Both the position numbers and the translations under genes were made by a program. From Bacteroidales bacterium (GTDB taxonomy: Bacteria; Bacteroidota; Bacteroidia; Bacteroidales; Paludibacteraceae), in contig JAAYPI010000059.1 in the NCBI GenBank assembly GCA_012519885.1, forward strand, positions 1 through 40,716: 40,716 nt of DNA. Reading direction: 5' to 3'. Under the pieces are notes generated by a model. It was given only the letters and a program-made list of their open reading frames with translations. It was not told the DNA's origin and did no database searches. Positions within the stretch are counted from its first letter, which is position 1. Every line of letters starts with the position of its first letter. Shown here one piece after another: positions 31,367 to 40,586 of the stretch.

Positions 31367-32368
31367 ATGAGGGATATGAATTTATATCGGCTTTTTTGTG
31401 GTAAGCTTACGATAAAACGTCTAATTAACTATATTCTTTTACGTTTAGAATATTTTATCTCGTATAGTAGTAAAACGCCTTTTATACATGCAAAACCTTT
31501 CGCCGCATCTATAGAACCAGCAAATTACTGCAATTTACAATGTCCTGAATGCCCTACAGGTATGGGAGCAATACAAAAAGAAGCTACTACTCTACCGTTT
31601 CCTTTGTTTAAAAAGATGATTAATCCTCTTCTTCCTGAACTATTTTACCTCAATCTATATTTTCAAGGAGAGCCTTTTTTGAATGAAAGTATTTATGACA
31701 TGATTGCCTATGCAAATAGGCAAAAAATCATTACCAATATATCTACCAATGGGCATTTTTTAACAGATTCAGCATGCCAACAACTCATAACATCTAAACT
31801 TGATAGAATTATTATTAGCCTTGATGGAGCAACAGAAGAAACATACGAAAAATACAGGGTGGGTGGTAATTTTACAGCGGTTGTGGATGGAATTACACGC
31901 CTAGTGCGTTTAAAAAAAGAAATGCAATCAAGAAGACCTTTCATCGAACTTCAGTTTATTGTTTTTAGTACGAATGAACACGAAATACCAGCAATTAAGG
32001 TATTAGCAAAATCACTACAGGTAGATGGCTTATCTATTAAGACGGCTCAATTAACTAATTTTAAAAAGGGTAATCCACTAATGCCAAAGAATACTATATA
32101 CAGTAGATATAAACTGGACAAAAACGGCTCCTATAAACGGAAAAAGCCTTTGCGTAATCGATGTTGGAAAAATTGGAGTTCTATCGTAGTTTCAACAGAC
32201 GGAAAAATGCTTCCTTGTTGTTTTGATAAACACGGGCTATATGCTTATGGCAACTTATTAGATAATGGGTTTCACTCCTTGTGGAATGGCGATAAGGCAA
32301 CAAAATTTCGATCAACCATTTTGCATAACAGAAAATCTTTGCCCATGTGCAACAATTGCACAGAATAA
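31367..32368 (+). CDS. Radical SAM/SPASM-like protein of unknown substrate
   Basis: The 333-residue protein binds a 4Fe-4S cluster through CNLQCPEC (Cys55, Cys59, Cys62) and continues with the radical SAM barrel (FQGEPFLNES, ISTNGHFLT, IIISLDGATEETYEKYRVGG). The C-terminal part carries Cys266, the pair Cys284-Cys285 and Cys328/Cys331 (MCNNC), which fits a twitch/SPASM auxiliary-cluster domain. Such enzymes often modify peptides, but others act on small molecules. It has its own promoter and converges on the RiPP exporter gene, 39 bp apart, so a joint role is possible but unproven. ATG 31376 (MNLYRLF) is an alternative start. Confidence 0.85.
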   Translation: MRDMNLYRLFCGKLTIKRLINYILLRLEYFISYSSKTPFIHAKPFAASIEPANYCNLQCPECPTGMGAIQKEATTLPFPLFKKMINPLLPELFYLNLYFQGEPFLNESIYDMIAYANRQKIITNISTNGHFLTDSACQQLITSKLDRIIISLDGATEETYEKYRVGGNFTAVVDGITRLVRLKKEMQSRRPFIELQFIVFSTNEHEIPAIKVLAKSLQVDGLSIKTAQLTNFKKGNPLMPKNTIYSRYKLDKNGSYKRKKPLRNRCWKNWSSIVVSTDGKMLPCCFDKHGLYAYGNLLDNGFHSLWNGDKATKFRSTILHNRKSLPMCNNCTE

Positions 32369-32407: not shown

Positions 32408-34630
32408 TTAATTGCCTAATTCAAGTTGATTTTTTACTAAATCATAATATGCTCCTTTTTTGTGGGTTAGTTCTTCGTGATTACCTATTTCAATTATTTT
32501 ACCATGTTCAAGAACAACAATTTGATCAGCACTTTTAACCGTCGAAAGTCGGTGTGCTATAATTATTACAGTTTTACCAACAAAAAAATGTTTTAATGAA
32601 TCGTGAATATATTTTTCACTTTTAGCATCGAGCGAGCTGGTAGCCTCATCAAAAAATATGTAGTGAGGATTTCGATATACTGCACGTGCTATCAAAATTC
32701 GTTGCCTCTGACCTCCCGAAATTCCATTACCCGATGCTCCAATTTTGGTTTTAAGTCCGAGCGGGAGTTCCTCAATAAAATCTTTAATATGTGCTATCTC
32801 AACAGCTTGTTGCAATCTTTCACTATCAATTTCCTCATCCCCTGTAGCTATGTTACGCTCAATAGTGTCTGAAAAAATATAGCCATCCTGCATTACGACC
32901 CCAACATTTTGACGTAAGCTCTTTGCTGATAAATTTTTGACATTATGACTATTGTAAAATATATTTCCATTTACCGGCTCATAAAATTTTAGCAGTAGTT
33001 TCATCAATGTTGTTTTGCCACTGCCACTGGTGCCTACAATGGCAGTTATTTTCCCTTCGGGTATGTTTAGGTCAATGCCTTTTAGCACATAAGGCGACAT
33101 CGGTCCTTGGTACTGAAACGAAATATTTTTCAAATGAATACCTTTAGTCATTTGTTCATGTACATTGGTATTATCAGGCGAATAATATATTTGATCGGGT
33201 TGTTCTTCTTCAAGTTGATATTGCACCTCGTTGAGTCGTTCTACAGATAAACGGGCATCTTGTAGCGACCGAAAAAAATTAACTAATTGATTTACAGGAG
33301 AATTCATCTGTCCAATAATATACGAAACACTCATTAATGCTCCAAGAGTCATTTGACCTTGTACTACGTAGTAGGCAGCTAAAAAAGTAACTAATATGTT
33401 TTTAAGTTGATTAAAAAACTCAAAACCAGAATTTTGAAATTGGTCAATGCGTAAAATACGTATATTAATTTTGAATAATTTTTCTTGTATTCTTTCCCAT
33501 TCTTTTCGTTTAAATTCTTCAAACTGATTTAGTTTCATTTCTGTAACTCCGTTTAAAATTTCGTAAACTGAGCTTTGATTTCGGGCTTGCTCTTGAAATT
33601 TGAAATAATCTACTATTTTACGTTTACGCAACCAAAAAAAAGACCAAAGAACCGCTATAATCGTTAACAATAAGTAAATTGCCAAGATTTTGTAGTCATA
33701 ATAACATAATACACCAAAAAAAACGCCAAAAGTAATAATTGAAAAAGCTGTTAAAATACTTTGAGAAGTAATAAAATATTCTATTCTTTCGTTGTCTTGA
33801 ATTCGTTGTTGAAGGTCTCCTACCATTTTTGAGTCGAAAAACTTGATAGGTAATTTCAGCATTTTTTTAAGAAAATCTGAAATTATTTTTATACTTAATC
33901 GTGTCCCGACAAATAAAGTAATCCAGTTGCGAAATATTTCGATAATTATTGCACCAAAAAACAATGACAACTGGGCAATTAAAATTAAGGTAATATAATG
34001 TAGGTTATTTTGATTAATACCTTTGTCAATAAGATTTTGAGTGAGAAATGGAAAAATTAAATTTAATGCACTACCCAATATAAGCAACAAAAACATCAAT
34101 GATAGTTTTTTACGAAAAGGAACAAGATAAGCAAATAAATATGCGATAAAAAATCTATGTACTTTTTCTGGATTCCGCGAATAAAAATGTTCTGTAGGCT
34201 CTAAAAATAACGCTACTCCTTCATCATCTTCTGATAGCCAGCCTTTTATAAATTTATCTTCGGATAAAGTAATAAAACCATGTCCAGGATCGGCAAGTTT
34301 AAATTGAAACTTCCCTGTAAAAGGGTTTTTTGAAACTTTACACAATAAAACGAAATGCGTTTGATTCCAATGCAAAACACATGGAAAAGGCACTTGTTTT
34401 GCAAGTGATAACTCTTTTAGTTTTGCTAATGTTAGTTTTGTTGGTAATGTAGAAAAACCTATGTCGGTAGCTGCTTGTGTAATACCCAAAAGAGATACCC
34501 CTTCTCGTGTAATATAAGTAGTTTCACGTAAGTATTGTACACTATAATCTTTACCATAATGGTTAGCTATCATCGAAAGACAAGCTGGACCACAATCCAT
34601 CATATCGTGCTGAGGAACAAATTTCATCAA
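32408..34630 (-). CDS. C39-peptidase ABC exporter (peptidase-containing, double-glycine type)
   Basis: The N-terminal C39 peptidase has Gln7, Cys13 (DCGPACLSM), His92 (THFVLL) and Asp114 (LADPGHG), a complete catalytic set. It cuts leader peptides after Gly-Gly. Six membrane segments follow (about 160-430). The nucleotide-binding domain has Walker A GTSGSGKTT (533-541), signature ISGGQRQRI (638-646), Walker B YIFFDEATSSLD (657-668) and a His switch (IIAHRLSTV). All parts needed for a homodimeric processing exporter are intact. The substrate is most likely the double-glycine peptide encoded at 36660-36833. No HlyD-type adaptor is encoded nearby. It is the last gene of the locus. Confidence 0.95.
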   Translation of the reverse strand: MMKFVPQHDMMDCGPACLSMIANHYGKDYSVQYLRETTYITREGVSLLGITQAATDIGFSTLPTKLTLAKLKELSLAKQVPFPCVLHWNQTHFVLLCKVSKNPFTGKFQFKLADPGHGFITLSEDKFIKGWLSEDDEGVALFLEPTEHFYSRNPEKVHRFFIAYLFAYLVPFRKKLSLMFLLLILGSALNLIFPFLTQNLIDKGINQNNLHYITLILIAQLSLFFGAIIIEIFRNWITLFVGTRLSIKIISDFLKKMLKLPIKFFDSKMVGDLQQRIQDNERIEYFITSQSILTAFSIITFGVFFGVLCYYDYKILAIYLLLTIIAVLWSFFWLRKRKIVDYFKFQEQARNQSSVYEILNGVTEMKLNQFEEFKRKEWERIQEKLFKINIRILRIDQFQNSGFEFFNQLKNILVTFLAAYYVVQGQMTLGALMSVSYIIGQMNSPVNQLVNFFRSLQDARLSVERLNEVQYQLEEEQPDQIYYSPDNTNVHEQMTKGIHLKNISFQYQGPMSPYVLKGIDLNIPEGKITAIVGTSGSGKTTLMKLLLKFYEPVNGNIFYNSHNVKNLSAKSLRQNVGVVMQDGYIFSDTIERNIATGDEEIDSERLQQAVEIAHIKDFIEELPLGLKTKIGASGNGISGGQRQRILIARAVYRNPHYIFFDEATSSLDAKSEKYIHDSLKHFFVGKTVIIIAHRLSTVKSADQIVVLEHGKIIEIGNHEELTHKKGAYYDLVKNQLELGN

Positions 34631-34644
34631 TCTATTTTTAAAAA

Positions 34645-35265
34645 TTATTTCTTAATATCAAAATCATCGTTATTTTCGGTTGTGTTTAGTTCAAAATTTG
34701 CTACATCTTTGAGTAATAAATTGGTATCTTTAATTTTAAATTCATTCAATTTTGTATTTGCTACCGATTTGAAATTTAAATTACACTTGTTAGCCGACCC
34801 TTTTATTGTGATATTTGCTACTGAGTTTAATTTACAATTCAACGTATTTGTAATTATTTTGTCTAAATAAATATTTGCCACAGCATTTGCACTCAAGGAA
34901 ATTGTATCTATCTGCAATGTTGTATTTTTATCAATATAAATATTTGCTACATCGTTTGCTTTTATGTGTATCGATTTATTTGGAATAGTGATATATACGA
35001 TATAATGACTTGATTCAAAGAATTTTCTACTTATAATTGATATTTTTTTATCTTTTACAGATGTTTTTATATGTGATTGATTCTTTTTTTCAGCTTCCAC
35101 TTCTACTTTGTATATGTTGCCATTTCTTATACAAATATTTGGTAATCCATCTATTTGTATAACCAAAATATCATCAGAAGTTTCGATACGTGTTTCTGTT
35201 ACTACTTGTGATTGCATAATGATTGCATTGATAAATAAAATACTGATTAATAATAAGTTTTTCAT
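34645..35265 (-). CDS. GIN-domain (DUF2807) repeat protein in the RiPP locus
   Basis: A signal peptide (about 1-20) is followed by a beta-rich region of the GIN/DUF2807 kind. Five repeats of about 20 residues carry a Val-Ala-Asn core at 106-108, 129-131, 149-151, 168-170 and 188-190 (for example NDVANIYID, NAVANIYLD, NSVANITIK), as expected for rungs of a right-handed beta-helix. GIN proteins usually have Gly-rich turns here, so the Ala-Asn form is distinctive. It is exported, probably to the periplasm or surface. It sits between maturase and exporter (24 and 14 bp gaps), so it belongs to the operon. Immunity or product binding are guesses. Confidence 0.72.
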   Translation of the reverse strand: MKNLLLISILFINAIIMQSQVVTETRIETSDDILVIQIDGLPNICIRNGNIYKVEVEAEKKNQSHIKTSVKDKKISIISRKFFESSHYIVYITIPNKSIHIKANDVANIYIDKNTTLQIDTISLSANAVANIYLDKIITNTLNCKLNSVANITIKGSANKCNLNFKSVANTKLNEFKIKDTNLLLKDVANFELNTTENNDDFDIKK

Positions 35266-35289
35266 TAAATGTAGGTTTTTAATTTGTTT

Positions 35290-36576
35290 TTAGTTAATGG
35301 CGTATAATAATTTTTCGCGTATAATATCTATTTTTTTATTCTCGTCAAAATCGTGTACGCAATAATCTTTACCTATATTATCTAATGCATGCTGAGTACA
35401 TGAACCATTACAAATAGGTAGGATATTACAAGCAAGGCAGGGTGGATTATTGAATTTTGACTCCATGCGTTGGTAGTATTTATCGTTCCACTCTATCGTC
35501 CCATCGTCCATTAAAACACCTTCACGATTCTCTGGTTTAAAATCTCTTGCCGTGCATTTATATACATCACCATTGAAGTTAATAGTGGCTTGGTTTTTTT
35601 TGTCCCCATAACACGATTCTCTGACAGAGTCATGGTATTTATTGTAACTTGTTTTGAGATTGTTTGCTTTAAAAACACTTATTATATCTAAAATATCGTT
35701 GTTCAAATCGGTTTTTTCTTGCCAAACCTGATTAAACGAAAAATCAATTAACTCCTTTTCGTTTTCATTTAAATCAGAAAAATCGTTGATAATATTGGTT
35801 AAATCTTCGTTAATAGTTTCTTTCGATAAATTGATACGACAAGTTACAGCTATCCGATTGTTTATACATTTCTTAATATTTGAAAATATTTTATCATAAG
35901 AACCATTATTCTCTTTCAAAAAACGAACTTTATTATGCCTGTCTCTATGTCCATCTAAAGTAATTTGAAAATGGTTTACTTTCAAAAGTTTTAGGTATTC
36001 GAGCATTTTGTTGTTTATCAATATTCCATTTGATGTGAAATTTGAGCTGAAAACAATTTTTGTATCTTTAATATGTTCATTTACAAACTCTAAAATTGGT
36101 AATACTACTTGTTTGTAACACAACAAAGGTTCGCCACCAAACCAGCTTATAGTAAAATATTTCACTACACTTTCGCTGAGTTTGCTTAATATGTGTTTTT
36201 TAATTTTTTCGATATTTACATCATTCATTTTTGAATTGACAATATGAGTTTCGTAACAATACCAACACTTTAAATTGCAATTCATTGTAGGGTTAATAAT
36301 AAGATGATAATGTTCTGGGTTATCATCTACCGATTTCACTAATTCTTTCACACATTGTATCTCATCTTTATCTGCTGGTACATAGAAGTTTTTTTTACAA
36401 AGCAAATCCCAAAAATCGGGATGAACTTCAGATAATTTAAAAATATTATCATACTGTGTATTAACCAACAAATCATATAATTCTGAATTAATAAAAATAA
36501 AATCATTTTCTAATGAATTGTAACCAACTATGAAATCATTATACGAAAAAAATATGTTAAATTGACTTGGTTTCAT
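35290..36576 (-). CDS. Radical SAM/SPASM peptide maturase
   Basis: The first 90 residues may form a precursor-recognition region. The radical SAM core has CNLKCWYC (Cys100, Cys104, Cys107), ISWFGGEPLL and ITLDGHRDRHN. The SPASM domain holds seven cysteines: Cys322, Cys341, Cys380, Cys383, Cys389, Cys393 and Cys406, enough for two auxiliary 4Fe-4S clusters. This layout is that of RiPP maturases which form thioether or carbon-carbon cross-links; it resembles the Bacteroidales double-glycine group, though I could not test this. It lies 83 bp downstream of the precursor gene, with a hairpin between them that may lower its expression. Confidence 0.92.
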   Translation of the reverse strand: MKPSQFNIFFSYNDFIVGYNSLENDFIFINSELYDLLVNTQYDNIFKLSEVHPDFWDLLCKKNFYVPADKDEIQCVKELVKSVDDNPEHYHLIINPTMNCNLKCWYCYETHIVNSKMNDVNIEKIKKHILSKLSESVVKYFTISWFGGEPLLCYKQVVLPILEFVNEHIKDTKIVFSSNFTSNGILINNKMLEYLKLLKVNHFQITLDGHRDRHNKVRFLKENNGSYDKIFSNIKKCINNRIAVTCRINLSKETINEDLTNIINDFSDLNENEKELIDFSFNQVWQEKTDLNNDILDIISVFKANNLKTSYNKYHDSVRESCYGDKKNQATINFNGDVYKCTARDFKPENREGVLMDDGTIEWNDKYYQRMESKFNNPPCLACNILPICNGSCTQHALDNIGKDYCVHDFDENKKIDIIREKLLYAIN

Positions 36577-36613
36577 AAATTTGATAATATTCTATAATTA
36601 ATTTTAATAATAA

Positions 36614-36643
36614 TTTGGAGACACATTTAATAGTGTCTCCAAA
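36614..36643 (-). terminator. Hairpin (attenuator) between precursor and maturase genes
   Basis: TTTGGAGACAC (36614-36624) and GTGTCTCCAAA (36633-36643) form a perfect 11-bp stem with an 8-nt loop. On the transcript no long U run follows, so it is more likely a partial terminator or an mRNA-stabilising end that yields more precursor than maturase mRNA, a common feature of RiPP operons. Confidence 0.65.
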
Positions 36644-36659
36644 AATAATAACTATCATC

Positions 36660-36833
36660 TTAAATAGTTGCACATATAATTCTGTTGTTTTTACACGTAC
36701 AATTATTTGTACAATAATTTACACCACTATCTCCACTACCTCCTTTGAGCTTTGTCATTTGAGTAATAGTTAGTGTAGTAAATCCACCTTTTAATATGCC
36801 ATTTTCTGATGACAATCTGGCTAATTTATTCAT
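36660..36833 (-). CDS. RiPP precursor peptide with double-glycine leader and four-cysteine core
   Basis: A 57-residue peptide from ATG 36833 (MNKLARLSS; ATG 36842 would add Met-Gly-Asn). The leader ends in QMTKLKGG (residues 25-32), a classic double-glycine site for a C39 exporter; an earlier LKGG at 14-17 is also present. The 25-residue core starts with SGDSGVNY and has cysteines at core positions 9, 13, 15 and 22 (CTNNCTC, then C after KNNRII). The position next to a radical SAM/SPASM maturase and a C39 exporter makes a modified peptide very likely. The leader resembles the Bacteroidales double-glycine rSAM targets. Cross-link type and activity are unknown. Confidence 0.85.
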   Translation of the reverse strand: MNKLARLSSENGILKGGFTTLTITQMTKLKGGSGDSGVNYCTNNCTCKNNRIICATI

Positions 36834-37009
36834 ATTTCCCATTTTTATTAAAAATATATTGTTGTTAACTTAGCGATTGATAGTTATTTTTTGATAGACA
36901 TACAATCTTATTCGGTCTATTTCTTTGGATTGCAATCAAAGAGTTATTTAAAATATTTATTTGATTCATAATTGGCCTTCTTATGTATCAAAATAAAGTA
37001 TTGAAAATG

Positions 37010-37017
37010 CAAAGTTA
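37010..37017 (-). promoter_or_regulatory. Candidate internal promoter of the precursor gene
   Basis: The minus strand reads TAACTTTG, a perfect -7 box just 3 bp past the stop codon of the upstream barrel gene. No -33 TTG is seen. A transcript from here would have a leader of about 170 nt, including an imperfect inverted repeat at 36923-36941 (around GATTGCAATC), before ATG 36833. Confidence 0.45.
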
Positions 37018-37019
37018 TT

Positions 37020-39206
37020 TTATTTACCTATACGGCTTTTTTCTTCTTGGTTACTGGCGTTGCGTTGTTCGGAGTTTATGTTGTTATTGCCAAATTTATA
37101 ATTAATGGTTATGCGTAGTTGCTGCGAATCATGGTAATTTGCAAAATTATATTGTATGTTATTTGATAGCATATTTGCATTTGATTTTTGGCTTTTTAGT
37201 ATATCGTTTGCCGATAACGAAACCGTTAATTTTTTATTTAAAAACATACAACGTATGCTCGAATTAATGCTATATAAAGCATCAACATTGGCATATCCAT
37301 CGATAAAGGGTAATTCGTAATAAAAACCAATATTTAATACGATGGTTTTATTCTTATTTAAAAAGAAATCGTTATTGGTTGTAAGGTTGCCACTAAATTT
37401 ATCCATCAATGGTAAGGTTTCAGCAATTTTCGATTTTTTGTTGATATAATAAAACACAGCATTGTTGTACGAATGCCACCACGACAGTTTATTGTAGTTC
37501 AACGATTCGGAAAAACCTATACTATAATAATTAACAAAATTCATAGTGTAATATCGGGTTACATTAGTAGACGCATCAACAAATGGAAACTGCTGAAAAT
37601 CGTTGTTTATATAGCTATACCATATTTTATGTTCAAACATTTGGGTATTTAGTACCAATTCTAAATTATTTGAATATGATGGTTTTAAATCAGGATTACC
37701 CTCAACATAACTTAGCGAATTGAGATAAAATCGAAATGGATTTAAATCACTGAAATAAGGTCGAGATGTACGACGACCATAACTTAATGATAAGGAACTA
37801 TTTTCTTTAAATCCATACACTAAATATAATGTGGGAAATAATTGTAAAACCGAGTAGTAGGGATTGTTTTGGTTCAATGTAATTGAATTGGCACGATATA
37901 AGGTATTTTCTAATCGTAAGCCAAACTGAACACCAATGTTGCCCATCCCTGTTTGTGCCGAAGCATACAAAGCTTGCGTGTTTTCATTGTACCGAAACTG
38001 ATTCGACTGATTTATATCTTCAGTATATGTGCCATTAATACTATTATAACTACGAAAAGTGTTGTTGGTTTGCGAAAACGAAACCTTTCCTCCTACGTTA
38101 ATATAAGCATATTCGTAAGGCAGTTCAACATCAAATTTAAGCGAATAATTGTTAATGTTCTTATTATTGGTATTCTTTTTTGCATAATCTGTATTCAAAA
38201 TCATATCACCATTACTGTAAAAATCTGAACCAGAGAACCATGCAGAGTCCTTGTTTGTGTATGTAAAATAATCAAAATCAATCGAAAGTTTTCGGTTTAG
38301 TGTGTCTAAATATGTTATACTATGTATATTAGCTGAATGTAGCTTTGGTTTATTTTCACTTAAACCATCAGACTTTTTAAGTAACAACAACTGTTCGTTG
38401 TTTCCAAAAATAGAAGAACCAGTATTGCTTGAAGATAAATTATTGGAAAATAAGTTGCCATTATAAAACATTCCCATCTTCCATTTATTGGTTACATCGT
38501 AATTTAATCCTGAATTAAAATTTATATTATTACTATTGTTTACGAAATCAGTGATGCTTACCCATTTCTCGAAAGGGTAATTAATTGTATGAATTACATT
38601 GTTTATATTTTTTGTTTTTTGTCCACTCAAATTGGAAAAAATTGACAATTTATCTTTTTTATAATTAAAATCTATTCCTCCATTTCCCGAAGCATAAGTA
38701 GCTTGTGTATAGCTACCTCGAACATTCATATTCCACGAATTGTTGCGGGCTTTTTTAAGTACAATATTTACGATACCGCTGTTGCCAGCGGCATCGTATT
38801 TGGCTGGCGGAGTGGTAATTACTTCGATACTTCTAATGGTAGATGCGGGTATACTTTTCAGGTAGCTAACTAAGTTTTCGCCACCAAGAGGTATTACACG
38901 GTCGTCCACTGTTAATATCATGCCACTTTTAGCAATCATACTTATTTGGTCATTTTTAACTCTTAATCCTGGCGTTATGCGTAATGCTTCAATAGCATCA
39001 TCCATAGTACTAGCTACCGAGTTTTCAACATTAAACACCAACCTATCAGTTTTACGAACAAATACTGGAGCCTTTGCTGTTACTGTAACTTCTTTGAGGT
39101 TAAGCACCCTTTCTAAGCTATCTAATTTAATGTCTAAACTATCAATCTGTGCCGAAATGTTGGCTATACCAACAAATAATAAAAATAGGACTATTCCTTT
39201 TTTCAT
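37020..39206 (-). CDS. TonB-dependent-receptor-like outer-membrane barrel in the RiPP locus
   Basis: The signal peptide (MKKGIVLFLLFVGIANISAQ) precedes a short linker, LKEVTVTAKAPVFVRKTDRL, and a plug domain (MDDAIEALRITPGLRV, then IRSIEVITTPPAKYDAAGNSGIVNIVLKK at about 130-155). The rest (about 570 residues) is barrel-like, with repeated aromatic strands, of the Bacteroidetes outer-membrane-barrel type. No N-terminal carboxypeptidase-like domain and no SusD partner are present. It lies in the RiPP operon between DUF6734 and the precursor, so it may release or take up the product, or act in immunity. The gene is intact, 728 residues. Confidence 0.85.
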   Translation of the reverse strand: MKKGIVLFLLFVGIANISAQIDSLDIKLDSLERVLNLKEVTVTAKAPVFVRKTDRLVFNVENSVASTMDDAIEALRITPGLRVKNDQISMIAKSGMILTVDDRVIPLGGENLVSYLKSIPASTIRSIEVITTPPAKYDAAGNSGIVNIVLKKARNNSWNMNVRGSYTQATYASGNGGIDFNYKKDKLSIFSNLSGQKTKNINNVIHTINYPFEKWVSITDFVNNSNNINFNSGLNYDVTNKWKMGMFYNGNLFSNNLSSSNTGSSIFGNNEQLLLLKKSDGLSENKPKLHSANIHSITYLDTLNRKLSIDFDYFTYTNKDSAWFSGSDFYSNGDMILNTDYAKKNTNNKNINNYSLKFDVELPYEYAYINVGGKVSFSQTNNTFRSYNSINGTYTEDINQSNQFRYNENTQALYASAQTGMGNIGVQFGLRLENTLYRANSITLNQNNPYYSVLQLFPTLYLVYGFKENSSLSLSYGRRTSRPYFSDLNPFRFYLNSLSYVEGNPDLKPSYSNNLELVLNTQMFEHKIWYSYINNDFQQFPFVDASTNVTRYYTMNFVNYYSIGFSESLNYNKLSWWHSYNNAVFYYINKKSKIAETLPLMDKFSGNLTTNNDFFLNKNKTIVLNIGFYYELPFIDGYANVDALYSINSSIRCMFLNKKLTVSLSANDILKSQKSNANMLSNNIQYNFANYHDSQQLRITINYKFGNNNINSEQRNASNQEEKSRIGK

Positions 39207-39242
39207 GTATAAAATGTTATTTCTTCGTAATCAATATTGTTT

Positions 39243-40586
39243 TCAATGAGTATATTCATCATGCTTAACTGCTAGAACTTTCATCCCAATATAATGCCTT
39301 AATAATTTATACAATATGGTCTGAAACTCGGCTTTTTCTTCATCTGAGGGTTCTTCCTCAAAACGACAAATAATGGCATTATACAATTCAGACTTTCTTT
39401 TTGGGCTGTTGAGTTCATAAAATATCACCTCATCCATTTGATCCATTTCACATACAAAATTATCATCCCCCAACTCTTTTGTATAAAGTTTAAATTTTTC
39501 GGTATCTTGATTAATTACAATCTCAGGTAATAGAATTATTTCATAATCAATATTATGCTGGTGATATTGGTCAATTTTTCTTACTTGTTCGTAAGTAAAT
39601 AAATCTCGTGCTAATAATCGTTTATTCGTAATTTCTGTTTCAGTATCTATATGCTGGGAATACCATTTTACTAAGTCCTCATTTTCAGTCTTGGAATACC
39701 GAAATTTAGTATATTCTTGATGATTAGGGGACGTAATATCTAAGAGTTTATTAATCCACTCTGGGTGATTATACCAGCAATATTGAAACATTTTAGAACA
39801 GGTGATGCTATCTGTTTTAAATACTCCAAGTAGGTGCAAGTAGGTTCTTGTTTCGGGGACACTATCAAAATCTCCAAACCCAATGTAATCATTGTCGCCA
39901 ATTTCGTCGTGTATCAATACTTCCACTTGTTTGTTTTCTTTGTAAGCACATTCGCAAAAAAGGACTTGTTCAAAAAAAACATTGAAGTTAAATAAGTTAA
40001 TCTTATCCCAAACGTTTTTGTTGGTATATACAAAATCACTTGCTATTTGGGTATATCTTTTAAAAAAATTGATATCATTCCCTCCGAAAATACCCATATT
40101 ATAGGCAGATTGATGTTTCCCTTTATGATAATCAAGAATTTCTTCTGGCATATAAAGCAAATTATTATGAATATTATTCCACATTTCACTATAATACTTG
40201 GTAGTTTTTTCGGGATTTTGTGCAATAAGTTCAGCCTTTAACAATTCTTCGGAGAATGGCTCAAAAATAAAAACATCGCCATCAACGTGCAAAAAAGGTT
40301 CATTTTGCAATGAGTAAACCTTAATCTTTGCCATTGCCCAAAGTTCTCCAGGTAGTTCATTTAAATCATCTAAAATAACATGTACTTTGGTATAGGGTAA
40401 ATTTAGCTGTCGTATCAAAACATCATAGCCAAATTCATCAGTATATAATTCAACTTGATTATAAAATTTGCGTAACTGGTAGCAACTAAACATCCACGAC
40501 AGCCAATGTGATTTATAATCAGCCCAGCCGTAGTTGTTTTTGATACTTTTATTTCTTCCTCCCCAAAAGGATTGTATTATTTTCAT
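39243..40586 (-). CDS. DUF6734-type, glycosyltransferase-like protein
   Basis: The 447-residue protein begins MKIIQSFWGGRNKS and has no signal peptide, so it is cytoplasmic. A GT-A-like core is suggested by the N-terminal strand order and by FLHVDGDVFIF, where Asp102 and Asp104 form a DxD-type metal motif, and by QSAYNMGIFGGND further on. It resembles the Bacteroidetes family DUF6734, which I recall near peptide-maturation genes; this was not searched. It could glycosylate the peptide or another target. It is the first gene of the locus, 36 bp upstream of the barrel gene, with a -7 box about 75 bp before its start. Confidence 0.68.
   Translation of the reverse strand: MKIIQSFWGGRNKSIKNNYGWADYKSHWLSWMFSCYQLRKFYNQVELYTDEFGYDVLIRQLNLPYTKVHVILDDLNELPGELWAMAKIKVYSLQNEPFLHVDGDVFIFEPFSEELLKAELIAQNPEKTTKYYSEMWNNIHNNLLYMPEEILDYHKGKHQSAYNMGIFGGNDINFFKRYTQIASDFVYTNKNVWDKINLFNFNVFFEQVLFCECAYKENKQVEVLIHDEIGDNDYIGFGDFDSVPETRTYLHLLGVFKTDSITCSKMFQYCWYNHPEWINKLLDITSPNHQEYTKFRYSKTENEDLVKWYSQHIDTETEITNKRLLARDLFTYEQVRKIDQYHQHNIDYEIILLPEIVINQDTEKFKLYTKELGDDNFVCEMDQMDEVIFYELNSPKRKSELYNAIICRFEEEPSDEEKAEFQTILYKLLRHYIGMKVLAVKHDEYTH

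Follow-up and report, generated by a model that had tools for sequence, protein, structure and literature searches.

The window analysed here is the whole of contig JAAYPI010000059.1 (40,716 bp), one of 219 contigs in the 2.28-Mb genome of a Bacteroidales bacterium of the family Paludibacteraceae (assembly GCA_012519885.1). Towards one end it holds six minus-strand genes in a row, which in the direction of transcription encode a DUF6734 protein, a TonB-receptor-like outer-membrane barrel, a small precursor peptide with double-glycine (GG) motifs, a radical SAM/SPASM maturase, a GIN-domain protein and an exporter with a C39 peptidase domain (Table 1). A first-pass annotation, made from the sequence alone, had put this row forward as a candidate locus for a ribosomally synthesized and post-translationally modified peptide (RiPP), with short gaps between the genes except around the precursor. 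All six genes are found where it placed them, and the gaps are 14, 24 and 36 bp, with 83 and 177 bp on the two sides of the precursor. Gene calls are the longest open reading frames (ORFs) of at least 90 aa, and five of the six genes, all but the precursor, have Pfam matches over cut-off.

Table 1. Genes and features of the six-gene locus, in window coordinates.
Feature	Position	Strand	Remarks
C39 peptidase-containing ATP-binding cassette (ABC) exporter	32408..34630	-	740-aa ORF; Peptidase_C39, ABC_membrane and ABC_tran over Pfam cut-off
GIN-domain (DUF2807) protein	34645..35265	-	206 aa; PF10988 63.3 bits (cut-off 24.2)
Radical SAM/SPASM peptide maturase	35290..36576	-	428 aa; Pfam Radical_SAM over cut-off
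Hairpin	36614..36643	-	11 pairs, 5 G-C; between precursor stop and maturase
Precursor peptide	36660..36842	-	60 aa; two GG motifs
Predicted precursor core SGDSGVNYCTNNCTCKNNRIICATI	36663-36737	-	25 aa, 4 Cys
TonB-receptor-like outer-membrane barrel	37020..39206	-	728 aa; OMP_b-brl_3 268.7 bits (cut-off 27), TonB_dep_Rec 39.4 bits
DUF6734 protein	39243..40586	-	447 aa; Pfam PF20508 343 bits

Maturase, precursor, exporter and barrel

The radical SAM motif CX3CX2C of the maturase is formed by C100, C104 and C107 and is invariant in an alignment of 34 maturases. Of seven SPASM-type cysteines in the same alignment, five (C322, C380, C383, C389 and C393) never vary and the other two (C341 and C406) are conserved in at least 90%, the Pfam SPASM score itself lying just under its cut-off (18.5 against 21.5 bits). 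No NCBIfam maturase family reaches cut-off for this protein: among the best 25 of 56 matches the highest is TIGR04463, with 139.9 bits against a cut-off of 525, and the 21 matches at E 1e-10 all lie below theirs; for the other 33 maturases, compared by E-value only, the best is 8.8e-55. In the predicted model (mean predicted local distance difference test score, pLDDT, 89.8) the N-terminus consists of three strands followed by helices and resembles a RiPP recognition element (RRE). The model aligns over its full length, this N-terminal region included, with TigE (8vpo; Z 21.8, root-mean-square deviation (rmsd) 4.2, 384 residues aligned), and likewise over its full length with 5why (Z 21.0, rmsd 4.8, 381 residues) and 5wgg (Z 20.2), whereas the alignments with anSME and ChlB, of similar score (Z 20.9-21.4), begin only at residue 85-89. 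By sequence profile the PDB entry that matches best is 5wgg (E 3.1e-21); the title of 5why refers to thioether bond formation, and we take the protein in both entries to be CteB. Based on this match in fold and profile to 5wgg and 5why, we consider a thioether, between a Cys sulphur and a carbon atom in another residue, to be the likeliest product of the predicted enzyme, with the reservation that TigE and anSME share the fold and catalyse other reactions. Like the CteB-type ranthipeptide maturase and TigE, the window enzyme combines CX3CX2C and SPASM-type cysteines with a Cys-containing precursor in the adjoining gene; it differs from them in sequence (17% identity in the structural alignments) and in its partners, namely a barrel, a C39 exporter and an xGF leader. 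No relative of the maturase was found among viral contigs.

Named genomes were scanned with an alignment of the maturase and two of its relatives; this confirmed 118 relatives, of which the best 80 were kept. Record titles label 78 of these 80 loci as Bacteroidota, the other two being labelled Beijerinckiaceae (L102) and only "bacterium" (L096). Counting same-strand genes no more than 2.5 kb away, 74 of the loci have a C39 exporter, 66 a barrel of the same family and 62 both, and the order barrel, maturase, C39 is found at 51 of the 66 loci that have enough flanking sequence. Both partners are concentrated around the maturase, with 76 C39 genes and 56 barrels in 389 kb near it against 4 and 9, respectively, in 514 kb of flanks. 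Distances between the proteins agree as well in Mantel tests on 59 complete loci, for which the window and G113 (a second genome, described below) were eligible: r is 0.81 for maturase and C39, 0.44 for maturase and barrel and 0.43 for barrel and C39, with none of 999 permutations as high, in a test uncorrected for species phylogeny.

A small Cys-containing ORF with a GG-type motif was found upstream of the maturase at 77 of the 80 loci by an uncurated regular-expression search, the exceptions being L116, L133 and L150, the last of which begins at a contig end. Candidates were kept if they had a Cys and a GG-type motif and had their end no more than about 2.2 kb ahead of the maturase ORF, the initial list before this filter including chance ORFs. 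Because of this conservation, and because G113 has a clear homologue with a conserved leader (L054:10332-10478), we take the window precursor as real. It has no Pfam or NCBIfam match; TIGR04149, the model for GG-Bacteroidales RiPP precursors, does not match it and matches 3 of 10 related precursors at 10.8-15.4 bits (cut-off 25), and no Pfam or NCBIfam model reaches cut-off for any of these 11 peptides. At most of the 80 loci the maturase is accompanied by an exporter, a barrel and Cys-rich candidates for a GG precursor, which supports the first-pass reading of a RiPP-type locus that includes the barrel. The four-gene core of maturase, precursor, exporter and barrel is a cassette spread over Bacteroidota that is not covered by the curated models compared, no NCBIfam model among them reaching cut-off.

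Of 156 unique precursor candidates, 145 could be sorted into 67 with two GG motifs and 78 with one; 139 of the 156 contain a GGF-type GF motif, and 25, the window and G113 included, have a second motif K-[IL]-K-GG. In these 25 leaders the positions -4, -7 and -12 relative to the second GG are hydrophobic in 25, 20 and 25, respectively, compared to 25, 0 and 3 for the first GG, where it should be said that the hydrophobic -4 of the second GG was built into the search pattern. The window leader has M29 and L24 at -7 and -12 of the second GG and N14 and R9 at those of the first. From this hydrophobic pattern we suggest that the second GG is the likely site of C39 cleavage, which would leave a core of 25 aa. 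Over 155 of the 156 peptides (one without a site under the rule was left out) the cores average 3.7 Cys, and CxN occurs 141 times in them, against a mean of 83 and a maximum of 109 in 500 shuffles.

The hairpin between precursor and maturase is a possible partial terminator, which may raise the level of precursor mRNA over that of the enzyme mRNA. Hairpins whose stem has at least 7 pairs, at least 3 of them G-C, are present in this spacer at 48 of the 72 loci with usable spacer length (out of 82, window and G113 included), compared to 359 of 1440 shuffled spacers, and the mean folding z is -2.9. In a search for Bacteroidota-type promoters, the pattern TTTG-N-TAnnTTTG has 6 matches in the window against 4.2 expected, which is uninformative, and a sigma-70 scan gave 48 against 50.6 in shuffles. 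TANNTTTG, which we take to be a Bacteroidota promoter-like box, occurs 89 times on both strands of the window against 68 expected, a number reached in none of 100 shuffles, and the search pointed to no specific promoter site.

By its three Pfam domains the exporter is a peptidase-containing ABC transporter (PCAT), and its translation contains DCGPACL, QTHFVLL and LADPGHG, in which we take the Cys, the His and the Asp to be the catalytic residues of the C39 domain. The barrel has a signal peptide by eye, a plug-like region and a TonB-box-like LKEVTVTA at residue 37; the loose pattern also matches other places, and an L.eV consensus appears in an alignment of 59 barrels from the loci. The GIN protein likewise has a signal peptide by eye, is secreted-looking and repetitive, and would be an accessory of the system. 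With regard to the barrel, the family pfam14905 is among the common neighbours of graspetide loci (cluster 163), and TonB-receptor-related proteins (cluster 146) are predicted to mediate graspetide export (PMC8939145). A TonB-dependent transporter is required for secretion in the case of Oar and PopC (PMC6434023), and the export route of clusters that have a PCAT and an outer-membrane protein (OMP) without a membrane-fusion protein (MFP) is posed as a question (PMC10352776).

The barrel could alternatively serve for uptake, if the modified Cys-rich peptide is a metal carrier that is exported through the C39 protein, binds metal and is re-imported by the TonB-type barrel. The TonB-box-like barrel is the commonest partner after C39 among the families counted, the cores are rich in Cys, and none of the six genes matched an immunity family in Pfam or NCBIfam, all of which would fit such a carrier. 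On the other hand, the same searches matched no metal-related family among the six genes, related barrels stand near graspetide loci for which TonB-receptor-related export is predicted (PMC8939145), and the example of Oar and PopC indicates that a TonB-dependent transporter is able to serve secretion (PMC6434023). We regard the metal carrier as quite improbable.

DUF6734 and the complete gene set

The AlphaFold model of DUF6734 (mean pLDDT 91.1) has a GT-A fold over residues ~1-286, and its C-terminal extension is made up of strands and, after them, three helices (residues ~349-441). Among the PDB matches listed its nearest fold is glycogenin (Z 12.8, rmsd 3.6, 204 residues aligned), tied with alpha-1,3-galactosyltransferase (Z 12.6). 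The DxD lies within HVDGD, whose H100, D102 and D104 are shared by all 20 homologues compared, and HxxGxxK, a motif of glycosyltransferase family 8 (GT8) enzymes that reads HLLGVFK in the window, is present in 15 of the 20; four others have A or S in place of the G and one has no such motif. A profile of DUF6734 gave nothing useful against PDB sequences, so that the assignment of the fold rests on the model, which agrees with the glycosyltransferase-like character proposed for this protein in the first pass. A literature search on the name DUF6734 gave no match.

The surroundings of DUF6734 were compared at 20 loci, comprising the window, G113 and 18 others matched at E 1e-30 or better; 22 weaker matches were dropped. 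A C39 exporter is present at 10 of these loci, always within 7 kb, a GG-leader-like ORF lies within 3.8 kb at 13, and one or the other is found at 16. The rate of GG-leader-like ORFs is 16 per 142 kb near DUF6734 and 6 per 195 kb further off, some of the distant ones being precursors of the same loci. At two loci (L066:8444-10450 and L068:7505-9385) DUF6734 is fused to a C-terminal C39-like domain over the Pfam cut-off; these domains cover profile positions 32-132 and 22-128 of 133, lacking the start of the profile, and are possibly leader-binding modules. Considering the association with GG leaders and C39 exporters together with these fusions, modification of peptides appears to be the likeliest role for this predicted glycosyltransferase, and the C-terminal extension seen in the model would suit a leader-binding domain. 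We further observed a VKOR-thioredoxin protein near DUF6734 in L065 and L177 and a second glycosyltransferase in L063, and among plasmids two distant matches of DUF6734 only.

Besides the window, one genome, G113 (L054), was found to have all six genes in this order; it belongs to a different genus. Identity to the window proteins is 77% for C39, 61% for the maturase, 61% for DUF6734, 48% for the barrel and 37% for the GIN protein. In G113 a transposase gene (DUF4372 and DDE_Tnp_1; L054:10643-11806) lies between barrel and precursor. DUF6734 is present at none of the 80 named maturase loci, several of which stop at contig edges, and this places glycosylation outside the core system. A GIN gene stands downstream of C39 at 5 of the 80 (L096, L117, L124, L134 and L142), all confirmed by Pfam, with one gene in between in L096. 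These five were recovered with a broader profile, a two-sequence profile having found none in 80; the broader profile also matched in L111, where the GIN gene is the third gene upstream of the barrel and is separated from it by two genes on the opposite strand, and this case was left uncounted. The first-pass proposal that the six genes form one unit, to be checked by co-occurrence, is thus borne out for barrel, precursor and exporter, but not for DUF6734, which is absent across distant relatives, with GIN in between, and the exact set is seen in the window and G113 only.

Samples at the ranks of family, order and phylum gave a similarly patchy picture. In the family sample the maturase is present at E 1e-30 in 12 of 200 genomes, its own counted, and among the 11 others DUF6734 or GIN was found in G113 only, as judged from fetched stretches that include some short contigs; the single genome listed from the same genus (82% complete) is without the maturase. 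In the order sample at least 5 of 393 genomes carry it at E 1e-80, again counting its own, and the 4 other carriers have neither DUF6734 nor GIN in the stretch examined. With a stricter profile at least 1 of 394 other genomes in the phylum sample, G206, was positive, having barrels, maturase and C39 without DUF6734 and GIN; in it three barrels of the same family flank the maturase and C39 genes (L191:2157-14969). Within the genus of G113, a DUF6734 of the window type occurs in 1 of 8 genomes, namely G113 itself. The G+C content of the locus is lower than that of its surroundings both in the window (30.4 against 35.0%) and in G113 (36.8%, insertion included, against 42.6%), which together with the patchy distribution suggests that the gene set is mobile.

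The distribution just described could mean that the system proper is a four-gene radical SAM RiPP cassette, and that DUF6734 and GIN are unrelated neighbours concerned with surface glycans and the envelope, respectively. The counts of 0 and 5 in 80 are what such an arrangement would give, and DUF6734 sits at the edge of the set. Against this, G113 keeps the order with both partners although it belongs to a different genus and its proteins, C39 apart, have diverged to 37-61% identity; the GIN gene lies inside the operon here and follows C39, one gene further on in L096, in five loci; and at 16 of the 20 loci compared for it DUF6734 has a GG-leader-like ORF or a C39 exporter in its vicinity. We consider an unrelated function of the two genes to be unlikely.

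A proposed pathway

Taking these observations together, we favor the reading, to which we give a probability of roughly 60%, that the locus is a Cys-rich, probably thioether-type RiPP cassette equipped with an added glycosyltransferase, a C39 exporter and a TonB-type barrel. It is supported by gene content, conservation, confidently predicted folds and catalytic motifs, and what is new here is that the form in the window extends the known logic of radical SAM RiPPs with C39 export by a GIN protein and a probable glycosyltransferase. In the pathway that we propose, the leader of the precursor would be bound by the RRE-like N-terminal part of the maturase, which would link a Cys sulphur of the core to another residue in a thioether of the ranthipeptide or sactipeptide type. 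DUF6734, being GT8-like, could put a sugar on the same peptide, at a core Cys, Ser, Thr or Asn. The C39 exporter would then cleave after the second GG and deliver the core to the periplasm, from where the TonB-type barrel may carry the peptide across the outer membrane, or else re-import a loaded form, export and uptake through the barrel being indistinguishable from the sequence. The GIN protein would be a secreted accessory that possibly holds the peptide at the surface.

Several results weigh against this reading. A Pfam scan of the six genes found no MFP or TolC, and DUF6734, as described, is missing from the named maturase loci. At 7 of the 20 DUF6734 loci there is no GG-leader-like ORF within 3.8 kb and at 10 no C39 exporter in the fetched stretch, and the GG-leader pattern is loose, so that at least L179 among the 13 positives looks like chance. 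Among all 67 candidates with two GG motifs, just 26 have a hydrophobic residue at -7 of the second GG, and many of the second GGs in this wider set are probably not cleavage sites. The precursor of G113 has just 13 residues and two Cys beyond its second GG, and the number of cores with any CxN (71 of 155) is not above that in shuffles (mean 65, maximum 80). An RRE in DUF6734 was also considered and is unsupported by sequence: the C-terminus of the protein has no Pfam match and no profile match to the N-terminus of the maturase, and its match to a lasso PqqD chaperone is weak (E 0.059, third behind two unrelated ones).

A wider proposal would be that DUF6734 proteins are Bacteroidota peptide glycosyltransferases recruited to GG-leader peptides and in some cases carrying a fused C39-like domain for leader binding, and that together with the radical SAM enzyme of the window they give a doubly modified, cross-linked glycopeptide that exits via a TonB-type barrel without MFP or TolC. 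We put this forward tentatively, as in our estimation it is rather doubtful in this full form. It does offer a concrete, testable function for DUF6734 as a peptide glycosyltransferase, and the interest of the locus is higher if DUF6734 indeed glycosylates the peptide. The locus is also a compact test case for how C39-exported peptides cross the outer membrane of Bacteroidota without an MFP.

Known systems and the flanks of the locus

A literature search on titles and the beginnings of abstracts, with most subscription papers outside its reach, found none that names this six-gene set. Among the closest known arrangements are the Bacteroidales RiPP clusters of PMC10352776, which share with the window the GG-leader peptides and the combination of PCAT and OMP without an MFP. 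Radical SAM enzymes are present in 8 of 9 of those clusters, one of which (BGC3) also has a glycosyltransferase, whereas it is YcaO or LanM that accompanies PCAT and OMP in those of them that lack an MFP, unlike in the window; section 3.2 of that paper does not mention DUF6734 or GIN (PMC10352776). Glycocins such as sublancin, glycocin F and thermoglycocin likewise have a Cys-rich precursor, a glycosyltransferase and a PCAT in one cluster (PMC12457901). The window differs from them in that its transferase would be the glycogenin-like DUF6734, in the added radical SAM maturase, and in having no thioredoxin-like gene among the six in Pfam; a thiol-disulphide oxidoreductase, of which there is none among the six genes, is usual in glycocin clusters and not strictly defining. 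The radical SAM peptides of the TIGR04149 or GG-Bacteroidales type share the GG leader, the radical SAM partner and the occurrence in Bacteroidota; in contrast to them the window precursor is unmatched by the model and the relatives that do match it are below cut-off.

Bacteroidota graspetide loci resemble the window in having a C39 exporter, a SPASM enzyme and a barrel of the pfam14905 family (PMC8939145), and at 20 of the 82 loci a cluster of LanB-like proteins is found close to the maturase (for example L104, L105 and L106; Pfam-checked for L104). These 20 loci look like hybrids in which lanthipeptide genes are combined with those of the radical SAM type, and some of the genes lie on the opposite strand. 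In addition, next to the maturase a Glyco_transf_7C glycosyltransferase-like gene is paired with a LanC-like one at four of the 82 loci (L086, L090, L093 and L112; Pfam-checked for L086). Such neighbours would be expected if the window held a system of the lanthipeptide or graspetide type, with the radical SAM enzyme in a secondary role. We find this highly improbable, as the six genes of the window are without a match to LanB, LanC, LanM or an ATP-grasp ligase among the Pfam and NCBIfam matches listed, which sets them apart from both lanthipeptide and graspetide loci. A HlyD-like (by eye) protein cluster was seen near the maturase at 12 of the 82 loci.

On its upstream side the locus runs close to the end of the contig, the start of DUF6734 being 130 bp from it, and the gene set may therefore run past the contig end. 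The last 14 nucleotides of the contig (40703-40716) are all C on the plus strand, hence G in the direction of the operon, and lie about 115 bp ahead of the DUF6734 gene. This 14-nt homopolymer run is the sole one of its kind in the genome and would be a sequencing artefact or an assembly break at a homopolymer. On the other side, a second radical SAM/SPASM protein is encoded on the plus strand (31367-32368), convergent with the C39 gene, and its nearest NCBIfam model is that of a tungsten-cofactor maturase (110.6 bits, cut-off 380). As G113 has a DUF218 gene on the corresponding side, we place this second radical SAM protein outside the shared set.

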